A stretch of DNA of 45,782 nucleotides from Phenylobacterium sp. (lineage in GTDB: Bacteria > Pseudomonadota > Alphaproteobacteria > Caulobacterales > Caulobacteraceae): positions 1 to 45,782 of the forward strand of contig JAGOQB010000019.1 in assembly GCA_017991675.1 (NCBI GenBank). The letters are read 5' to 3'. Positions within the stretch are counted from its first letter, which is position 1, and every line of letters starts with the position of its first letter. The notes beneath the pieces are model-generated. The model made no database searches. It was not told the DNA's origin and saw nothing but the letters and a program-made list of their open reading frames with translations. Below, piece after piece: positions 35,246 to 41,287 of the stretch. The position numbers were made by a program, and so were the translations under genes.

Positions 35246-36109
35246 ATGGCCGCCACGCTCGCCGAGCCGATCACCGTCACCCCGCAGCCGAGCGGCTTCG
35301 GCGCGCAGGTCACCGGACTGGACCTGTCGCGCCCGCTGGACGCCGCGACCCTGGGCCAGGTCAAGGACGCCTGGGCCCGGCACGCGGTGCTGGCCTTTCC
35401 GGGCCAGCCGCTGAGCCTGGAGGCGCTGGAGGCCTTCACCCTGCAGATCGGGCCGTTTGGGGTCGATCCGTTCATCAAGCCGATGCCCGGCCATCCCAAT
35501 GTGCTGGAGCTGCGCCGCGAGCCGGACGAGACGTCCAAGAACTTCGGGGCCGGCTGGCACTCGGACTGGAGCTTCCAGAAGGAGCCGCCGGCCGCGACGC
35601 TGCTGCGCTCGGAAGTCACCCCGCCGGTCGGCGGCGACACCCTGTTCGCCGACTGCGCACGGGCCTATGACGCGCTCTCGGACGGCATGAAGGCGCTGCT
35701 GGCGCCGCTGCAGGCGGTGCACTCGGCGACCCGCGCCTATGGCACGCAAGGGGCCTACGCCAAGGAGGCGCAGGCGCGGACGATGCAGATCATCGTCTCG
35801 ACCGAGGCCGAGAAGACCCTGACCCACCCGCTGGTCCGCACCCATCCGGTCACCGGCCGCAAGGCGCTGTTCGTCAGCCCGACCTACACCGTCGGCATCG
35901 AGGGCCTGACCTATCAGGAAAGCCACGCGATCCTGGGCTTCCTCTACCAGCACATGACCCAGGAGCAGTTCATCTACCGCCACCACTGGCGCCAGGGGAT
36001 GCTGCTGATGTGGGACAACCGCTGCACGGTGCACTTCGCCGAGGGCGGCTATGACGGCCACCTGCGGGTCATGCACCGCACGACGGTGGCGGGGGATGTG
36101 CCGGTCTAG
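35246..36109 (+). CDS. TauD/TfdA-family 2-oxoglutarate- and Fe(II)-dependent dioxygenase
   Basis: Non-haem iron oxygenase of 287 residues. The iron ligands are H105 and D107 (WHSDWS) and distal H263 (CTVHFAEG), and R278 (MHRTT) should bind 2-oxoglutarate. TauD-like enzymes hydroxylate sulfonates such as taurine, or aryloxyacids and related carboxylates. No sulfonate transporter or other sulfur genes are near, so the substrate is open. The start has a strong ribosome site, AGGAGG, about eight bases upstream. Monocistronic, followed by a long palindromic repeat. Confidence 0.93.
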   Translation: MAATLAEPITVTPQPSGFGAQVTGLDLSRPLDAATLGQVKDAWARHAVLAFPGQPLSLEALEAFTLQIGPFGVDPFIKPMPGHPNVLELRREPDETSKNFGAGWHSDWSFQKEPPAATLLRSEVTPPVGGDTLFADCARAYDALSDGMKALLAPLQAVHSATRAYGTQGAYAKEAQARTMQIIVSTEAEKTLTHPLVRTHPVTGRKALFVSPTYTVGIEGLTYQESHAILGFLYQHMTQEQFIYRHHWRQGMLLMWDNRCTVHFAEGGYDGHLRVMHRTTVAGDVPV

Positions 36110-36125
36110 GGGGCAAGGCCCAAGG

Positions 36126-36269
36126 TGTCATCTCGGCTGGAGCGAAGCGGAAGGCCGGGACCCATTCGCGCCGAAGCGGCGGGCGTCTGGCGCCGTTGGG
36201 CGCTCCATCCTGAAGGATCAGGTGTTCATGGGTCCCGGTCTTCGGCCTGCGGCCGAAACCGGGATGACA
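36126..36269. repeat. Long palindromic intergenic repeat, family A (variant 2)
   Basis: The segment runs from TGTCATCTCGGC to CCGGGATGACA, with inner GGCCGGGACCCAT and ATGGGTCCCGG arms. The right half GGTGTTCATGGGTCCCGGTC is repeated almost exactly at 45520-45545. It shares GGGACCCA/TGGGTCCC and CCGGGATGA with the elements at 36989 and 40521. It occupies most of the gap between the dioxygenase and the SnoaL-like gene, both of which end here. Confidence 0.8.
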
Positions 36270-36279
36270 GCTGAAGAGG

Positions 36280-36831
36280 CTACGGGGCCGCGCCGATCTG
36301 GGTCATGAAGGCGGCGTTGTCCCAGAACAGCCATTCCTCCTTCATGCGGCCGTTCTCCCAGCGGGCGACGGTCATCATCGGCAGAGTGAAGGTCTTGCCG
36401 GTCGGCTGGAGCTGCTGGCCGTTCCCGAGGTCCATCGGCTTGGAGAAGGTGCCGGTCATGATCCCCTGGACCGCCGTAAAGTCGCCGTCCGCCAGCTTGA
36501 TCGGGTGCTGCTTGATCGTCGTGTCCGGCGCGAAGGCGAACTGCGGCTTGAGCTTGGCGAGGTGGTCGGGGATGCCGGTGGTCGTCGTGCCGTCGGGGTA
36601 GTGGACGACGATGTCCTCGGCGTGGCTCTTGTTGAACTCGTCCCACTTCTGGCCGCTGTAGACCCGGAAATCGAGGTCGTCGAAGTTGGCGAGATTGGCC
36701 TTCTGCTGCTCGGTGTGGCCTGCCGGCGCCGCGGCTGTGGCGGGGGCCTTGGTGGTCGCCGCCGGGGGCGAGCAGGCCGCGAGCAAGGCGGCGGCCATCA
36801 GCGGTCGGGCAAACAGTTCAAGTGCACGCAC
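36280..36831 (-). CDS. SnoaL-like (NTF2-fold) lipoprotein
   Basis: A 183-residue lipoprotein. The signal ends in a lipobox LLAAC with C20, then a Thr/Ala/Pro-rich linker reaches about residue 45. The NTF2-like SnoaL/ester-cyclase domain occupies 48-180 (YSGQKWDEFNKSHAEDIVVHYPDG, TFTLPMMTVARWENGRMKEEWLFWDN). Cytoplasmic relatives are polyketide cyclases or limonene-epoxide-hydrolase-like enzymes; an exported lipoprotein version has no known function. It converges on the dioxygenase gene across a repeat. Confidence 0.82.
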   Translation of the reverse strand: MRALELFARPLMAAALLAACSPPAATTKAPATAAAPAGHTEQQKANLANFDDLDFRVYSGQKWDEFNKSHAEDIVVHYPDGTTTTGIPDHLAKLKPQFAFAPDTTIKQHPIKLADGDFTAVQGIMTGTFSKPMDLGNGQQLQPTGKTFTLPMMTVARWENGRMKEEWLFWDNAAFMTQIGAAP

Positions 36832-36988
36832 GACACAAGCTCCTGTGGAGGCGCGGCCGTCGAGGGCCGCCTGCTTAACGCGCGGCGGGGCGTTTGAGGG
36901 GCGGCCGGTTCAGACCGGCGAGCGCCAGACGGTCAGCGGTCCAAGCGGGAGGAAGCCGCGGCGGGTGGAGCGCCGCATTCAACACCGC

Positions 36989-37090
36989 TCATCCCGGCGA
37001 AGGCCGGGACCCAAGCGGCGCTTGGGCGAGGTGGAAGCATTGTCGGTTGGCTTGCGATTCAGCTTGGGTCCCGGCCTTCGCCGGGATGAG
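36989..37090. repeat. Long perfect inverted repeat, family A (variant 1)
   Basis: Arms of 29 bases (36989-37017 and 37062-37090) are exact reverse complements, beginning CTCATCCCGGCGAAGGCCGG and ending GGCCTTCGCCGGGATGAG, around a 44-base centre. An almost identical element is at 40521-40623. It fills the 330-base gap between the SnoaL-like and phosphotransferase genes, where I see no gene. Confidence 0.88.
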
Positions 37091-37160
37091 GGGCGGGCCA
37101 GCCAAGAGCTTGAACCTGCGAATTCCCTAAGTCGGCGCCGATCACTGAGCGAAGTCGCCC

Positions 37161-37832
37161 CTACCCCTCCCGCGCCGCCAGCCGCGCGGCCAGGGTGCGG
37201 GTGCGGCGGGCGGCGGTCCAGGCGGCGCCGGCGGCGATGACCAGCAGGCCGAGGATGACGGCCTGGCCGTTCCAGCCCCACAGCGGCTCGAAGGCGGCCA
37301 GCGCGCAGGTGGCGGTGAGGGCGGCCATGCGGTGCGGCTTGGCCATGGGCCCTGAGAAGTCGGCCGGGAAGCCGAGGCCGCGGCCGAGCTCGCGGACATA
37401 GGCGGTGAGCACCGCCAGCACCGCGGCGGCCCAGCCGAGCGGGGCGCCGAGCGTGAAGCCGGAGAGATCGGCGAAATAGCCGGCCCCGACCAGGAACAGG
37501 GCGTCGGCGATGCGGTCGGGCAGCTCGTTCCAGATCGGCCCCGACGGACCGCCCTTGCCGTGCTCGACCGCCACCATGCCGTCGAGCAGGTTGCAGAGCA
37601 GGCGCAGCTGGATGCAGACCCCGGCGCCGATCAGCAGCGCGCCGCGATGGAACGGCGTCTGGTCGCCGGCCGCATAGAGGAAGGCCAGCAGGCCGAGCAG
37701 GGCGAAGATGATGCTGCCCGCCGAGACCATGTCCGGGCTGGCGCCGGCCTTGGCCAGGCCCGAGGCCAGGCCCTGGGCCCAGCCGGTCCCGCGCGACTTC
37801 AGGGGACGGCGGTTCTCTGGGGTCTCGGTCAT
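37161..37832 (-). CDS. CDP-alcohol phosphotransferase family membrane protein, atypical motif
   Basis: Integral membrane enzyme-like protein of 223 residues with about six hydrophobic segments. The family motif D-x2-DG-x2-AR-x8-G-x3-D-x3-D is recognisable with exact spacing but altered: N81-x2-D84-G85-x2-A88-V89-x8-G98-x3-N102-x3-D106. Two of four metal-ligand aspartates are Asn and the Arg is Val. I recall similar Asn substitutions in E. coli YnbA-type members. ATG 37832 overlaps the stop of the upstream small membrane protein (TGATG). It lies opposite CdsA- and PlsC-like genes, which suggests a dedicated phospholipid or CDP-activated lipid pathway; the product is unknown. Confidence 0.85.
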   Translation of the reverse strand: MTETPENRRPLKSRGTGWAQGLASGLAKAGASPDMVSAGSIIFALLGLLAFLYAAGDQTPFHRGALLIGAGVCIQLRLLCNLLDGMVAVEHGKGGPSGPIWNELPDRIADALFLVGAGYFADLSGFTLGAPLGWAAAVLAVLTAYVRELGRGLGFPADFSGPMAKPHRMAALTATCALAAFEPLWGWNGQAVILGLLVIAAGAAWTAARRTRTLAARLAAREG

Positions 37833-38224
37833 CAGGGGGCCTTGGCTTGGCCGCGCGCCAGGGTCGCGGCGTAGACGATGGCGTAGAAGGTGGAGACCGA
37901 CCACGGCACGGCGATGGTGCGGGCGACTTCGGGCGTGCCGATCAGCGTGTGGACGCCGACCAGCAGGGCGAGGATCGCGGTCGCGGTGATCGCCGGCGGG
38001 ACGACATAGGCCAGCGCGCCGGAAAACCGCGGGCTCATCGCCTCCAGCGCCCGCTTGAGCACCAGGGTGATCAGGCCCGAGAGCACGCCTTGCGCCGCCG
38101 CCGGCAGGGCGGCGGCGGCCAGGCCGTGGCCGGCGTTGGCGAACAAGGCCCAGCCGCCCATGGCCAGGAAGGCGAAGCCGACATGGGCGAAGGTCGAGCC
38201 GGCGAAGGTGCGGAACGCGCTCAA
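37832..38224 (-). CDS. Small four-helix membrane protein of the phospholipid module
   Basis: About 130 residues with four hydrophobic helices (FAHVGFAFLAMGGWALFA, LPAAAQGVLSGLITLV, YVVPPAITATAILALLVGV, SVSTFYAIVYAATL). The start is uncertain. TTG 38224 (MSAFRTFAG) is the first candidate that avoids the divergent cdsA-like gene, and it lacks a clear ribosome site. Its stop overlaps the start of the CDP-alcohol phosphotransferase, so the two are co-translated. I do not recognise a family with confidence. It may be a partner or flippase-like accessory of the module. Confidence 0.7.
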   Translation of the reverse strand: MSAFRTFAGSTFAHVGFAFLAMGGWALFANAGHGLAAAALPAAAQGVLSGLITLVLKRALEAMSPRFSGALAYVVPPAITATAILALLVGVHTLIGTPEVARTIAVPWSVSTFYAIVYAATLARGQAKAP

Positions 38225-38314
38225 AGGTGGCAGGAGGGGGCTTTGCTGCTGGGGGATGGAATCTGCGCCGCCATCCGCTGTACGGTCAAGCCGCGGGCGA
38301 ACGGGAGCTAGGGC

Positions 38315-39280
38315 ATGGACGCAGTCACGGGGTTCTTCGCCCAGCAGTCGCCGGTGGTGCTGTGGGGGCTTGGCGGGGTGCTGGCCGTGCTGACCCTGGC
38401 GGTCGCGATCACCGCCCTGCTGCCGGTGCTCAAGCCCGCCGGCGACTTCACCAACCTGCGCCAGCGAATCGCCTCGTGGTGGGTGATGATCGCGCTGCTG
38501 GCCGGGGCGCTGCTGGCCGGCTGGCAGATGTTCACGACGCTGATGATCGCGATCTCGTTCATCGCCCTGCGCGAGTTCCTGTCGCTGGCCCCGGTGCGGC
38601 GCGAGGACCGGCTGATCGTGCTGGCGGCGTTCGTGGCGATGGGGATCAACTACCTCTTCATCATCATCGACGACTACGGCCTCTATCGGGTGTTCATCCC
38701 GACCTATGTGTTCCTGATCATCCCGTTCCTGATGGCCTGCATCGGCCAGACGCGGGCGTTCCTGGCGACCACGGCGACGTTCCACTGGGCCATCGTCACC
38801 TGCGTCTACAACCTCGGCTACATCGCCTTCCTGATGCGCACGCCGGCCGCCGAGGCGCAGCCGGCCGGGGCGGCGGGGCTGGTGTTCTTCCTGCTGGTGG
38901 TCACCGAGGCCAACGACGTGGCGCAGTACGTCTGGGGCAAGCTGCTGGGCAAGCGCAAGATCGTGCCCAAGGTCAGCCCCAACAAGACCTGGGCGGGCTT
39001 CATCGGCGGCTGGGTCACCACCAGCGCGCTGATCTGGTTCCTAGGTCCGGTGTTCACGCCGCTGAGCGGGATCGGGCTGGCGTGCCTGGCGCTCTTCCTG
39101 CCGCTGGCGGGCTTCGCCGGCGACGTGACGATGAGCGCCATCAAACGCGACATCGGGGTCAAGGACACCAGCGCGCTGATCCCCGGCCACGGCGGGCTGC
39201 TGGACCGGGCCGACAGCCTGACCTTCACCGCGCCGCTCTACTTCCACATCCTCGCCTACTTCGTCCTGGATCACTTCTGA
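38315..39280 (+). CDS. Phosphatidate cytidylyltransferase (CdsA family)
   Basis: Membrane enzyme of 321 residues that makes CDP-diacylglycerol from phosphatidic acid and CTP. About eight hydrophobic helices precede the CdsA signature at the C-terminus, SAIKRDIGVKDTSALIPGHG followed by GLLDRADS, which contains the metal-binding Asp and Lys-Asp pair. KVSPNKTWAG is the other conserved site. It is longer than minimal CdsA and not next to the usual uppS/dxr/rseP genes, so it is probably a second, specialised copy of YnbB type. Its stop overlaps the PlsC-like start (TGATG). Confidence 0.92.
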   Translation: MDAVTGFFAQQSPVVLWGLGGVLAVLTLAVAITALLPVLKPAGDFTNLRQRIASWWVMIALLAGALLAGWQMFTTLMIAISFIALREFLSLAPVRREDRLIVLAAFVAMGINYLFIIIDDYGLYRVFIPTYVFLIIPFLMACIGQTRAFLATTATFHWAIVTCVYNLGYIAFLMRTPAAEAQPAGAAGLVFFLLVVTEANDVAQYVWGKLLGKRKIVPKVSPNKTWAGFIGGWVTTSALIWFLGPVFTPLSGIGLACLALFLPLAGFAGDVTMSAIKRDIGVKDTSALIPGHGGLLDRADSLTFTAPLYFHILAYFVLDHF

Positions 39281-39918
39281 TGCGTTGGTTCCGCCGCTTC
39301 GTCCTGGTGCTGATCGGCCGCCCGATCGCGCGGGTGTTCACCGGGGCCGACATCGTCGGGCGCGAAAAGCTGCCGCTGAAGGGGCCGGCGATTCTGGCCG
39401 CCAACCACGCCAGCCATGTCGACACCATCCTGATGCTGACGCTCTATCCGTCCAAGGGGCTGGACCGGGTGCGGCCGGCGGCGGCGGCCGACTACTTCCT
39501 GCGCGGCGGGCTGATCAGCTGGCTGTCCAACACCATCATCGGCATCGTGCCGGTGGCGCGCGACAAGGCCGGGACCGGGGTCGACGTGCTGGAGCCGGTG
39601 CGCGCGGCGCTGAAGGCCGGCGACATCGTGCTGATCTTCCCGGAGGGCACGCGCGGCGACGGCGAGGAGATGGCCCAGCTGAAGAGCGGGGTGGCGCGGC
39701 TGGCCGCCGACGTGCCCGAGGCGCCGGTCTATCCGATCTGGCTGCAGGGCGCGGGCCGGGTGCTGCCCAAGGGCGAGGCGCTGCCGGTGCCGATGAACTG
39801 CACGGTGCTGGTCGGCGACCCGCTGCACTGGCAGGGCGACCGCCAGGCGTTCCTGGACGAGCTGCGCGGGCGGCTGGAAGAGCTGAAGGCCAAGGCACCG
39901 CCGCAGCGGTGGGCTTGA
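39280..39918 (+). CDS. 1-acyl-sn-glycerol-3-phosphate acyltransferase-like (PlsC family)
   Basis: Membrane-associated acyltransferase of 212 residues. The catalytic HxxxxD motif is NHASHVD (H43, D48) and the substrate motif is FPEGTR (120-125). VPVARDK is the third conserved block. It would acylate lysophosphatidic acid to phosphatidic acid, the substrate of the upstream CdsA-like enzyme. The ATG overlaps the cdsA stop in TGATG, so the pair is co-translated. The acyl preference cannot be told. Confidence 0.92.
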   Translation: MRWFRRFVLVLIGRPIARVFTGADIVGREKLPLKGPAILAANHASHVDTILMLTLYPSKGLDRVRPAAAADYFLRGGLISWLSNTIIGIVPVARDKAGTGVDVLEPVRAALKAGDIVLIFPEGTRGDGEEMAQLKSGVARLAADVPEAPVYPIWLQGAGRVLPKGEALPVPMNCTVLVGDPLHWQGDRQAFLDELRGRLEELKAKAPPQRWA

Positions 39919-39926
39919 CGGGTTAG

Positions 39927-40034
39927 TTGCTCCCCCCTGGGGGAGCAGTCAGCCGATTGGCTGACGGAGGGCGATTGCGGACTCAGCAGGCCCCCTCCGT
40001 CGCGCTACGCGCGCCACCTCCCCCAGCGGGGGAG
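39927..40034. repeat. Palindromic intergenic repeat, family B
   Basis: It begins TTGCTCCCCCCTGGGGGAGC, contains AGCCGATTGGCTGACGGAGG, then mirror segments GGCCCCCTCCGTC and CTCCCCCAGCGGGGGAGG. It resembles 24787-24836 and the truncated copy at 45642. It fills the gap between the PlsC-like and GFA genes. Confidence 0.78.
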
Positions 40035-40107
40035 GAATTATCGGCCGACTGCTGACACGTTCCGGCGCGCCTCTGCGCATTCTGTCGCTCCAACAATGGA
40101 GGCGAGG

Positions 40108-40500
40108 ATGATCCGGGGAAGCTGCAATTGCGGGGCGGTCAGGTTCGAGCTGGCTGCGGCGCCGACGATGATGGGCACGTGCCACTGTTCGCGCTGCCGC
40201 AAGGCCGGGGCCGGGACGTTCGTGCTGGTGGCGCGAGACACGTTGCGCTGGATCGCCGGGCGGGAGGCGGTGGCGAGCTATGCGCCCGAGCCGCCGTTCA
40301 AGTACGCGCGCTGCTTCTGCCGCCATTGCGGGACCGGGCTGGGGGAGATCGGCTCGGACGCCGAGACCTTCCCGATCGCCGCCCACTGCCTGGACGACGA
40401 CCCGCAGGTGCGTAACCGGTTCCATGAGTGGGTGTCGGTCAAGCCGGCCTGGTACGAGATCTGCGACGAGGCCAGGCGGTTTCCGGAGAACCCAGGGTAG
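40108..40500 (+). CDS. GFA/CENP-V family zinc protein
   Basis: A 130-residue protein of the glutathione-dependent formaldehyde-activating enzyme fold. Zinc ligands are visible in SCNCGAVRF, CHCSRCRK and CFCRHCG, matching the family's two zinc sites. True Gfa adds glutathione to formaldehyde, but most homologues are uncharacterised. ATG 40108 is chosen because GGAGG lies five bases before it; an upstream in-frame ATG at 40096 overlaps that site. No formaldehyde-oxidation genes are near. Confidence 0.9.
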   Translation: MIRGSCNCGAVRFELAAAPTMMGTCHCSRCRKAGAGTFVLVARDTLRWIAGREAVASYAPEPPFKYARCFCRHCGTGLGEIGSDAETFPIAAHCLDDDPQVRNRFHEWVSVKPAWYEICDEARRFPENPG

Positions 40501-40520
40501 GGCGGCGGACCCCGACGCCG

Positions 40521-40623
40521 CTCACCCCGGCGAAAGCCGGGGCCCAAGCGGCGCTTCGGCCTGGCTGGAGCGTCGTTCGCGAGTTTGGGATTCCGCTTGG
40601 GTCCCGGCTTTCGCCGGGATGAG
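40521..40623. repeat. Long inverted repeat, family A (variant 1 copy)
   Basis: The left arm (40521-40549) begins CTCACCCCGGCGAAAGCCGG and the right arm (40595-40623) ends GGCTTTCGCCGGGATGAG. They are complementary except for about two positions. The element is nearly identical to 36989-37090, including the flanking AAGCGGCGCTT in the centre. It separates the convergent GFA and J-domain genes. Confidence 0.85.
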
Positions 40624-40633
40624 CGGAGGGCCG

Positions 40634-41287
40634 TCAGGCCATCTTGGCCTTCTTGAGGACCTGATAGGCCTTGATCACGCGCTGGAGCTTGTGCTCGGCC
40701 GAGCGGTCGCCGCCGTTGGAGTCTGGGTGGGTGCGCTTGACCAGCTCGATGTAGCGGGCGCGGATGGCCGGGCCGTCGGCGTCCTCGTCGAGGTCGAGGT
40801 CGGCCAGGGCGTTGCGTTCGAGCTTGCCGAGCCGGCGGGTCGGTTCAGCGGGCTTGGCCTGCGTCTTGGCGCCGGCCCCGAACAGGCTGAACGGGTCGGC
40901 GTAGCCCTCGCCCTTGCCGAAGCCGTGGGCCGCGCCTGCGGCCTCACGCGTGAACTTGCTGGCCTTGAACTGCCAGGTCGGGCGGTCGCCGACCGCACTC
41001 TGGGCCTGGCGATTGCGGATCTCGCCCTCGCTCATGCCGGCGAAGAAGTCCCACTGCTTGTTGTACTCGGCCGCGTGCGGCTGGCAGAACCAGTAGTGCT
41101 CGTTGAGCATGTCGCGCGATTTGGGCGCGCGCGCGCTCGCCGCCGTCCGGCAGCCCGGATGGTCGCAAGCCCGTTCGCCGGGCTTCAGCGCATAGACATC
41201 GTCGTTCCGCTTGGCCTCCTCCTCCGAACCGGGGGGACGCACTCGGATATCGACGAACTTAGGCTTGTATTGAAACGCGCCGGCCAT
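40634..41287 (-). CDS. J-domain (DnaJ-like) protein
   Basis: Cytoplasmic DnaJ-type co-chaperone of 217 residues. The J domain is at the C-terminus (about 155-215) with the HPD motif at 187-189 (VKRTHPDSNGGDRS). The N-terminal region contains a probable metal-binding set of Cys/His (ACDHPGCRT, HYWFCQPHAAEYN). This C-terminal-J arrangement is characteristic of an alphaproteobacterial family found beside bolA and cobS. It is divergent from bolA across 52 bases, so the two share a promoter region. Confidence 0.92.
   Translation of the reverse strand: MAGAFQYKPKFVDIRVRPPGSEEEAKRNDDVYALKPGERACDHPGCRTAASARAPKSRDMLNEHYWFCQPHAAEYNKQWDFFAGMSEGEIRNRQAQSAVGDRPTWQFKASKFTREAAGAAHGFGKGEGYADPFSLFGAGAKTQAKPAEPTRRLGKLERNALADLDLDEDADGPAIRARYIELVKRTHPDSNGGDRSAEHKLQRVIKAYQVLKKAKMA

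Follow-up and report, generated by a model that had tools for sequence, protein, structure and literature searches.

A conserved and patchily distributed gene module for a probable phospholipid pathway with an atypical CDP-alcohol phosphotransferase in Phenylobacterium sp.

The window analyzed here is a stretch of 45,782 nucleotides from Phenylobacterium sp. (contig JAGOQB010000019.1, assembly GCA_017991675.1), and our subject is a module of four genes at positions 37161 to 39918 that encodes homologues of phospholipid synthesis enzymes. The genes form two divergent pairs with a TGATG overlap inside each. This confirms the genes and coordinates proposed in an earlier note on this DNA, which had been made by reading the sequence alone. 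The features of the module are as follows.

37161..37832, minus strand: CDP-alcohol phosphotransferase homologue of the Asn/Asn subfamily (OHPT), 223 aa
37832..38224, minus strand: small membrane protein (SMP), 130 aa, TTG start inferred, overlapping OHPT at a TGATG
38225..38314, no strand: intergenic region of 90 bases that separates the divergent pairs and is the expected site of both promoters
38315..39280, plus strand: CdsA-like phosphatidate cytidylyltransferase of the module clade, 321 aa, distinct from the housekeeping CdsA (G000:C3)
39280..39918, plus strand: PlsC-like acyltransferase, 212 aa, coupled to CdsA by TGATG

The plus-strand products match their Pfam families well over the cut-off, with 212.3 bits to PF01148 for the CdsA-like protein and 82.8 bits to PF01553 for the PlsC-like protein. 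The former carries the C-terminal signature KRDIGVKD...HGGLLDRADS and the latter the motifs HASHVD (HX4D) and FPEGTR, all read from the sequence. The SMP has four hydrophobic stretches, in keeping with the four helices ascribed to it previously, and no Pfam match at cut-off.

The gene set recurs in many genomes. A genome scan with patterns taken from the window protein, one of which spans residues 84-91, returned 311 relatives of the transferase, and the loci of the best 80 of these 311 were analyzed. They belong to Caulobacterales, Rhizobiales, other Alphaproteobacteria and Chromatiaceae, together with records labelled Terriglobia/Acidobacteriaceae, Verrucomicrobia, Eremiobacterota and Bdellovibrionales, several of which are metagenome bins whose labels are given as recorded. 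CdsA and PlsC genes both lie within 5 kb of the transferase gene in 73/80 loci, in six arrangements, or four if the SMP is not counted. Conservation of this neighbourhood had been set beforehand as the point on which the idea of a dedicated pathway could fail; it holds in related and distant genomes alike. Among the exceptions, L008, L009 and L036 start less than 750 bases from a contig end, L076 has PlsC on a contig of only 3.6 kb, one flank of L075 is limited to 3.1 kb, the CdsA match of L040 falls at the distant end of its locus, and L079 has neither gene within 6 kb on either side. The SMP gene adjoins that of OHPT in 53/80 loci, which makes the SMP, earlier proposed as an accessory, an optional companion of the transferase.

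An independent draw of 249 genomes of the phylum was searched by profile instead of by window patterns. It gave 14 positive genomes, the window's own included, in 13 of 149 genera; among genomes with a completeness of 90% or more and a contamination of 5% or less, 13/242 were positive. Of the 13 new genomes, all but L204 have a CdsA gene inside the 1.5-kb flank (12/13). Conservation in the 80 loci of several phyla and in 13/13 drawn genomes marks the observation as more than chance.

The motif of the transferase reads N81-LL-D84-G85-MV-A88-V89-x8-G98-x3-N102-x3-D106, which has the spacing of the canonical DxxDGxxAR-x8-GxxxDxxxD and keeps both glycines and the alanine, with the first Asp (D1), the Arg and the third Asp (D3) replaced. 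The earlier note had read this spacing and these three replacements correctly. The residues that set the protein apart are encoded as follows.

37602-37604, minus strand: codon of OHPT R77
37590-37592, minus strand: codon of OHPT N81
37566-37568, minus strand: codon of OHPT V89
37527-37529, minus strand: codon of OHPT N102
37524-37526, minus strand: codon of OHPT E103

Further key residues of OHPT are D84, D106, R107, R147, K165, R168 and R210.

These states were compared by aligning 93 window-type and 19 YnbA-type proteins with 13 canonical ones. The rows are not independent, since there are close relatives among them and the window's own locus is entered a second time, and the canonical proteins are few. 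Positions 81 and 102 are both Asn in 93/93 window-type and 19/19 YnbA-type rows and Asp in 13/13 canonical rows, the last figure being partly a matter of choice given that the canonical group was labelled by its Asp motif. Positions 77, 89 and 103 were not used for labelling. Arg77 is found in 93/93 window-type, 19/19 YnbA-type and 0/13 canonical rows, and exactly the same distribution applies to Glu or Asp at position 103. Position 89 is Val or Ile in all 93 window-type rows, Arg or Lys in all 19 YnbA-type rows and Arg in all 13 canonical rows. The Asn changes that the earlier note ascribed to Escherichia coli YnbA are indeed present there, with the motif Arg retained.

D84 and D106 are invariant across the alignment and are the only two of the four Asp kept in window-type rows. 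In the window-type and YnbA-type rows together there is no variation at N81, D84, N102, D106, R77, K165 or R168. G85, A88, G98 and the basic acceptor pocket of the window type are also invariant or nearly so. R77, N81, N102, E/D103 and R107 recur in all 13 independently drawn genomes, where position 89 is V, I, L or M. Mixed Asn/Asp motifs were absent from all 34 matching loci of the 37 scanned (L106, L114 and L115 gave no motif match) with a pattern that admitted only D or N at both places. The resulting signature of the subfamily is R-x3-N-x2-DG-x2-A...G-x3-N-[ED]-x2-D. Fixation in 93/93 rows and 13/13 drawn genomes excludes decay, sequencing error or chance as the origin of the Asn states. 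As judged by sequence, this subfamily fails two defining features of the classical family.

Standard family libraries do not identify the protein as a known enzyme. The window transferase has no Pfam family match; PF01066 is matched by 26/66 relatives at E values up to 1 (best 8.7e-7). Its NCBIfam scores are all under cut-off, at 55.1 bits against 180 for archaetidylinositol-phosphate synthase and 38.3 bits against 170 for the phosphatidylinositol-phosphate (PIP) synthase equivalog. A profile of the 66 relatives matched solved structures, the best being 4o6m (E 3.5e-10), followed by 6h53 (E 1.4e-9) and 5d91 (E 1.4e-5). These structural matches, together with the sub-threshold NCBIfam matches, establish kinship with the CDP-alcohol phosphotransferases. 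The best match, the archaeal phosphotransferase AF2299 (4o6m), differs in having all four Asp and the Arg. Likewise, the mycobacterial and Renibacterium PIP synthases (6h53, 5d91) share profile homology and a basic acceptor pocket with the window enzyme, but their four Asp and Arg are intact, whereas the window enzyme has Asn/Val/Asn plus Arg77 and Glu103.

Alignment to the mycobacterial PIP synthase places N81, D84, N102 and D106 opposite D68, D71, D89 and D93, so canonical Asp residues are not to be found elsewhere in the protein, which was the second point on which the proposed pathway had been made to depend. V89 corresponds to R76, E103 to A90, R107 to R94, R147 to K135, K165 to R152, R168 to R155 and R210 to R195. 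In the Mycobacterium tuberculosis enzyme, D68, D71 and D89 bind Mg-1, D89 and D93 lie at metal site 2, D93 is the presumed base, and R76 contacts the alpha-phosphate of CDP-diacylglycerol (CDP-DAG). A bulky residue at A90 impairs its activity, presumably via the acceptor, and R94, R155 and R195, located at the acceptor phosphate, are required for activity (PMC6506517, PMC4634129). The window enzyme keeps the base and the acceptor pocket and is without one Mg-1 carboxylate and the bridging carboxylate. Arg77 stands one helical turn ahead of N81, and Glu103 adjoins N102. We infer that the metal site is rewired, possibly as a one-metal site. In window-type rows the pocket residues R107, R147, K165 and R168 are basic in 93/93 and R210 in 91/93 (two gaps); since these align with R94, K135, R152, R155 and R195, the acceptor is predicted to be anionic.

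An alternative is that the transferase is catalytically dead and binds lipid or CDP-DAG in the capacity of a regulator or scaffold, leaving the enzymatic work to CdsA and PlsC. The absence of two of the four metal-binding Asp and of the phosphate-contacting Arg would agree with this, as would the finding that every motif change tested in an archaeal relative lowered or abolished activity (PMC8633023). However, the (near-)invariance of D84, D106, G85, A88, G98 and the basic pocket is unexpected for a dead enzyme, and two charged residues have been gained. In the archaeal relative, extra Mg2+ partially rescues D41S and D62S, which correspond to D1 and D3, as well as D66N (PMC8633023). Given the invariant residues, the lack of mixed motifs and this rescue of D41S and D62S, we take the transferase to be probably active, and a dead transferase to be improbable. 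Because motif changes harm the archaeal relative, a natural fixed Asn pair would need compensation or a different reaction.

The module CdsA is likewise distinct from its housekeeping counterpart. In a tree of 62 rows, from which the long-branch L135 and the near-duplicate housekeeping L165 and L168 had been dropped and for which housekeeping L192 and L199 gave no sequence, all 44 module CdsAs fall into a single clade, apart from the 18 housekeeping CdsAs, with support of 100/100, and the window CdsA lies inside it. This second, phylogenetically distinct CdsA supports the earlier proposal of a dedicated PlsC-CdsA-transferase pathway beside the housekeeping one. The clade mixes CdsAs with window-type and YnbA-type partners, and its starred branches force at least four label changes (three in an earlier tree). 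The tree of transferases resolves window-type (100/99) and YnbA-type (98/98) proteins as distinct clades. They are joined at 91/87 after eight long-branch or duplicate rows are dropped, and their relationship is unresolved with all 66 rows; the two types together are likely to be one clade, and a single origin of the Asn pair is not claimed.

One described relative is ynbABCD (b1408-b1411) of E. coli, which likewise has adjacent genes for an Asn/Asn transferase and a module-clade CdsA. YnbA differs from the window enzyme in keeping Arg at position 89, and equivalents of R107 (R94) and R147 (K135) occur in 0/19 YnbA-type rows. The E. coli K-12 operon also differs in lacking a PlsC gene and in adding YnbC, a hydrolase/methyltransferase, and YnbD, a PAP2/dual-specificity phosphatase, both absent from the window cluster. 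Relatives of YnbA (E up to 1e-20, at least 40% identity) were found in 15/276 gammaproteobacterial genomes, with a CdsA match in 13 and a YnbC match in 7 of the 15 neighbourhoods. Operons larger than the window module occur in E. coli, in Burkholderia and on one Terriglobia contig. One locus has the gene order YnbA-YnbC-YnbD-PlsC-CdsA (L133). The Terriglobia locus, L074, combines a window-type transferase with a YnbC-like protein (50% identity to E. coli YnbC), a YnbD-like protein, PlsC and CdsA, and is the only one of 89 loci searched with both YnbC and YnbD. Since partner types interchange within the CdsA clade and L074 joins both kinds of gene, the window module, ynbABCD and the related operons look, from their sequences, like variants of one system. 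A product assigned to the E. coli K-12 ynb operon was not found in the open-licence literature searched. YnbD has no assigned function in the source consulted and does not complement loss of phosphatidylglycerophosphate (PGP) phosphatase (PMC7413402), which speaks against plain phosphatidylglycerol as the ynb product. Two side observations concern these operons: a second YnbD-type phosphatase gene follows CdsA at L074:11312-12037, and ynbA is listed in a table of E. coli loci affecting cyclic di-GMP (PMC13031359), a link to the module not being drawn.

The occurrence of the module is patchy. It is present in 7/36 listed members of the genus, the window's own genome included (G000, G022, G023, G004, G024, G016, G015); some of the others are incomplete. 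One further genome, G025, has only a 70-residue match with two stops (E 9.4e-4). The nearest named relatives of the transferase, both from Phenylobacterium, are 93% and 92% identical to it. All seven module-bearing genomes have two PF01148 genes each, and all six module-less genomes tested have one. This second gene and the separate CdsA clade indicate that the module CdsA is a specialised copy.

In the window a tauD-like gene and a J-domain gene flank the module at opposite ends, each separated from it by one small gene; the names tauD-like, J-domain, cobS and bolA rest on reading the translations. G022 and G024 carry the module at the same position, whereas that of G015 and G016 is found on a different contig from cobS. 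The gap from tauD-like to J-domain gene is 620 bases in module-less G031, other module-less genomes hold other DNA there, up to 10.8 kb (L152; G005), and G029 has no J-domain gene in the 12.3 kb examined. This interval (window 36109-40634) may be an insertion hotspot.

Plasmids also carry the module. The window transferase matched 135 plasmid records at E up to 1e-5, 101 of them from Rhizobium, and 84 matches cover at least 80% of the protein; YnbA matched 30 plasmid records. All six plasmid loci that were read have the Asn/Asn motif and a CdsA gene. On plasmid pNK_1 of Nitratireductor kimnyeongensis (L144), a PlsC-CdsA-transferase set lies between genes for glycerol-3-phosphate uptake (ugp) and inositol catabolism (iol), neighbours that are a possible hint at the acceptor. 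The Pseudanabaena plasmid ABRG53d (L145) has genes for a YnbA-type transferase, CdsA, PlsC and a methyltransferase beside nitrogen-fixation genes, and a Pseudomonas sp. FeN3W plasmid (L142) has a window-type transferase-PlsC-CdsA set beside TerD-family genes and integrases.

A second described relative would be the arc1 cluster of Pseudomonas aeruginosa (arc1A-F, PA2541-PA2536). We take PA2541 to be a CDP-alcohol transferase. We group the window module with arc1 on this assignment, on the annotations of two further genes and on parallels of gene order: PA2536 is annotated as a probable phosphatidate cytidylyltransferase and PA2537 as a probable acyltransferase, L133 ends with PlsC then CdsA, and L074 has PlsC, CdsA, then a last phosphatase gene. 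The cluster differs in having six genes, five of them in phospholipid metabolism, and in being under Gac/Rsm control, and it is needed by P. aeruginosa under type VI attack by Burkholderia thailandensis (PMC8926400). In addition, full resistance to the lipase effector Tle1 of Acinetobacter baylyi and to Vibrio cholerae with an active lipase effector TseL requires arc1A (PMC12663445). If Arc1A is of the same type as OHPT, this separate phenotype of the arc1A deletion also tells against a dead transferase. An exact primer pattern for Arc1A matched 0/297 genomes of the family of G308, perhaps the wrong family. The arc1 studies (PMC8926400, PMC12663445) and the larger related operons had been overlooked in the earlier note, whose interpretation as a whole is partly supported.

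The arc1 studies also raise the prospect of a remodelling or repair module, in which PlsC would re-acylate lysolipids and the transferase would exchange headgroups or run in reverse, recycling damaged phospholipids. Consistent with this, resistance to lipase effectors draws on arc1A, arc3A and aas alike (PMC12663445), and several of the related operons encode an alpha/beta hydrolase-methyltransferase. Against it, a dedicated CdsA would point to synthesis, and the window locus is without such a hydrolase. Elsewhere in its own genome, which is about 70.7% complete, YnbC matches cover the hydrolase half only (best E 3.4e-28); the YnbD search was limited to the cluster. We consider repair improbable.

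A simpler proposal is a second ordinary phosphatidylglycerol or phosphatidylinositol branch, that is, a redundant PlsC-CdsA-PgsA/PIP synthase set in which Asn is tolerated and a standard lipid is made. AF2299 and the PIP synthases are the closest solved relatives, the inositol-phosphate pocket residues are retained in window-type members, the Nitratireductor set lies between ugp and iol genes, and four arc1 genes are homologous to phosphatidylglycerol synthesis enzymes according to the arc1 authors (PMC8926400). Redundancy would nevertheless leave the fixed, linked Asn pair, R77 and E103 unexplained, and the module CdsAs branch separately as a clade. The failure of YnbD to substitute for PGP phosphatase and a weak negative for inositol-phosphate synthase (PF07994, 0/16 genus members) argue in the same direction. 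On balance, an ordinary branch is unlikely.

The module is thus genuine, conserved and patchy in its distribution, and is one version of a module type already known. In all likelihood it provides an active accessory pathway to a phospholipid and takes part in defending the envelope. Its four genes would be a compact version of a widespread accessory module, with ynbABCD and, by published description, arc1 as larger relatives. PlsC would acylate a lysophosphatidate-type lipid to phosphatidic acid, and the module's own CdsA would convert this to CDP-DAG. The Asn/Asn transferase would then join the phosphatidyl group to a small alcohol that is anionic and probably phosphorylated, so that a minor phospholipid arises beside the housekeeping lipids. 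Its metal site, which we take to be rewired, combines Asn for Asp at the first and third positions with Arg77 and Glu103 and keeps Asp84 and the presumed base Asp106, and in the window branch Val or Ile stands in place of the Arg that contacts the alpha-phosphate. The likely function is to shield the envelope when rival bacteria attack it, also with phospholipases. Taken as a whole, with active rewired transferase, anionic acceptor and envelope defence, we give this account slightly better than even chances.

Several points weigh against it. The arc1 defect persisted when single B. thailandensis effectors were inactivated, among them the phospholipases Tle1 and Tle3, and a broader role is suggested by the authors, leaving room for an effector outside those tested (PMC8926400). 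Against V. cholerae, arc1A looks auxiliary to arc3A (PMC12663445). The kinship of Arc1A is drawn from descriptions rather than its sequence, and the excerpts of the arc1 literature do not name a product. For window-type members, no product, activity or phenotype was found in the open-licence literature searched. The harm done by every motif change tested in the archaeal relative counts here too. As the window locus is without YnbC and YnbD, its end product may differ from that of the larger operons; acceptors may also differ between window-type and YnbA-type enzymes, given the missing R94 and K135 equivalents in the latter. Finally, an inositol-phosphate acceptor is doubtful and phosphatidylinositol as product is weakened by the PF07994 search, which found the family in none of the 16 genus members and in 1/25 genomes overall (G062, the genome of L074). 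Corynebacterium glutamicum makes phosphatidylinositol. The search was silent in this control as well, so the absence calls are weak.

A bolder version, which we regard as possible though rather unlikely, is that the Asn/Asn enzymes represent a catalytic class new to the CDP-alcohol transferase fold, in which the invariant Arg77 replaces one metal, Glu103 enters the acceptor site, and an undescribed phospholipid hardens membranes against phospholipases. If true, this would be a lipid-based defence that is both widespread and mobile, its members lying on contigs labelled Pseudomonadota, Acidobacteriota, Verrucomicrobiota, Bdellovibrionota, Eremiobacterota and Cyanobacteriota. The four-Asp motif has a fixed, linked alternative in whole subfamilies that are accompanied by a dedicated CdsA in several phyla. 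This offers a testable route to the lipid of the module and to the chemistry behind arc1 antagonism resistance and the E. coli K-12 ynb operon, and related gene sets may aid bacterial survival of membrane-dissolving attacks.

Some minor observations concern the SMP. With E values up to 1, 20 Pfam families were matched by some of 35 family members and none was accepted; the commonest weak match was PF07694 (11/35 members, best E 0.0055) and the lowest E value was 0.00024 (PF14019, 1/35 members). The alignment of these 35 sequences has 17 invariant columns, and many of the invariant residues are polar, namely N30, Q45, S49, T53, K57, H92, T97, Y114 and Y118.

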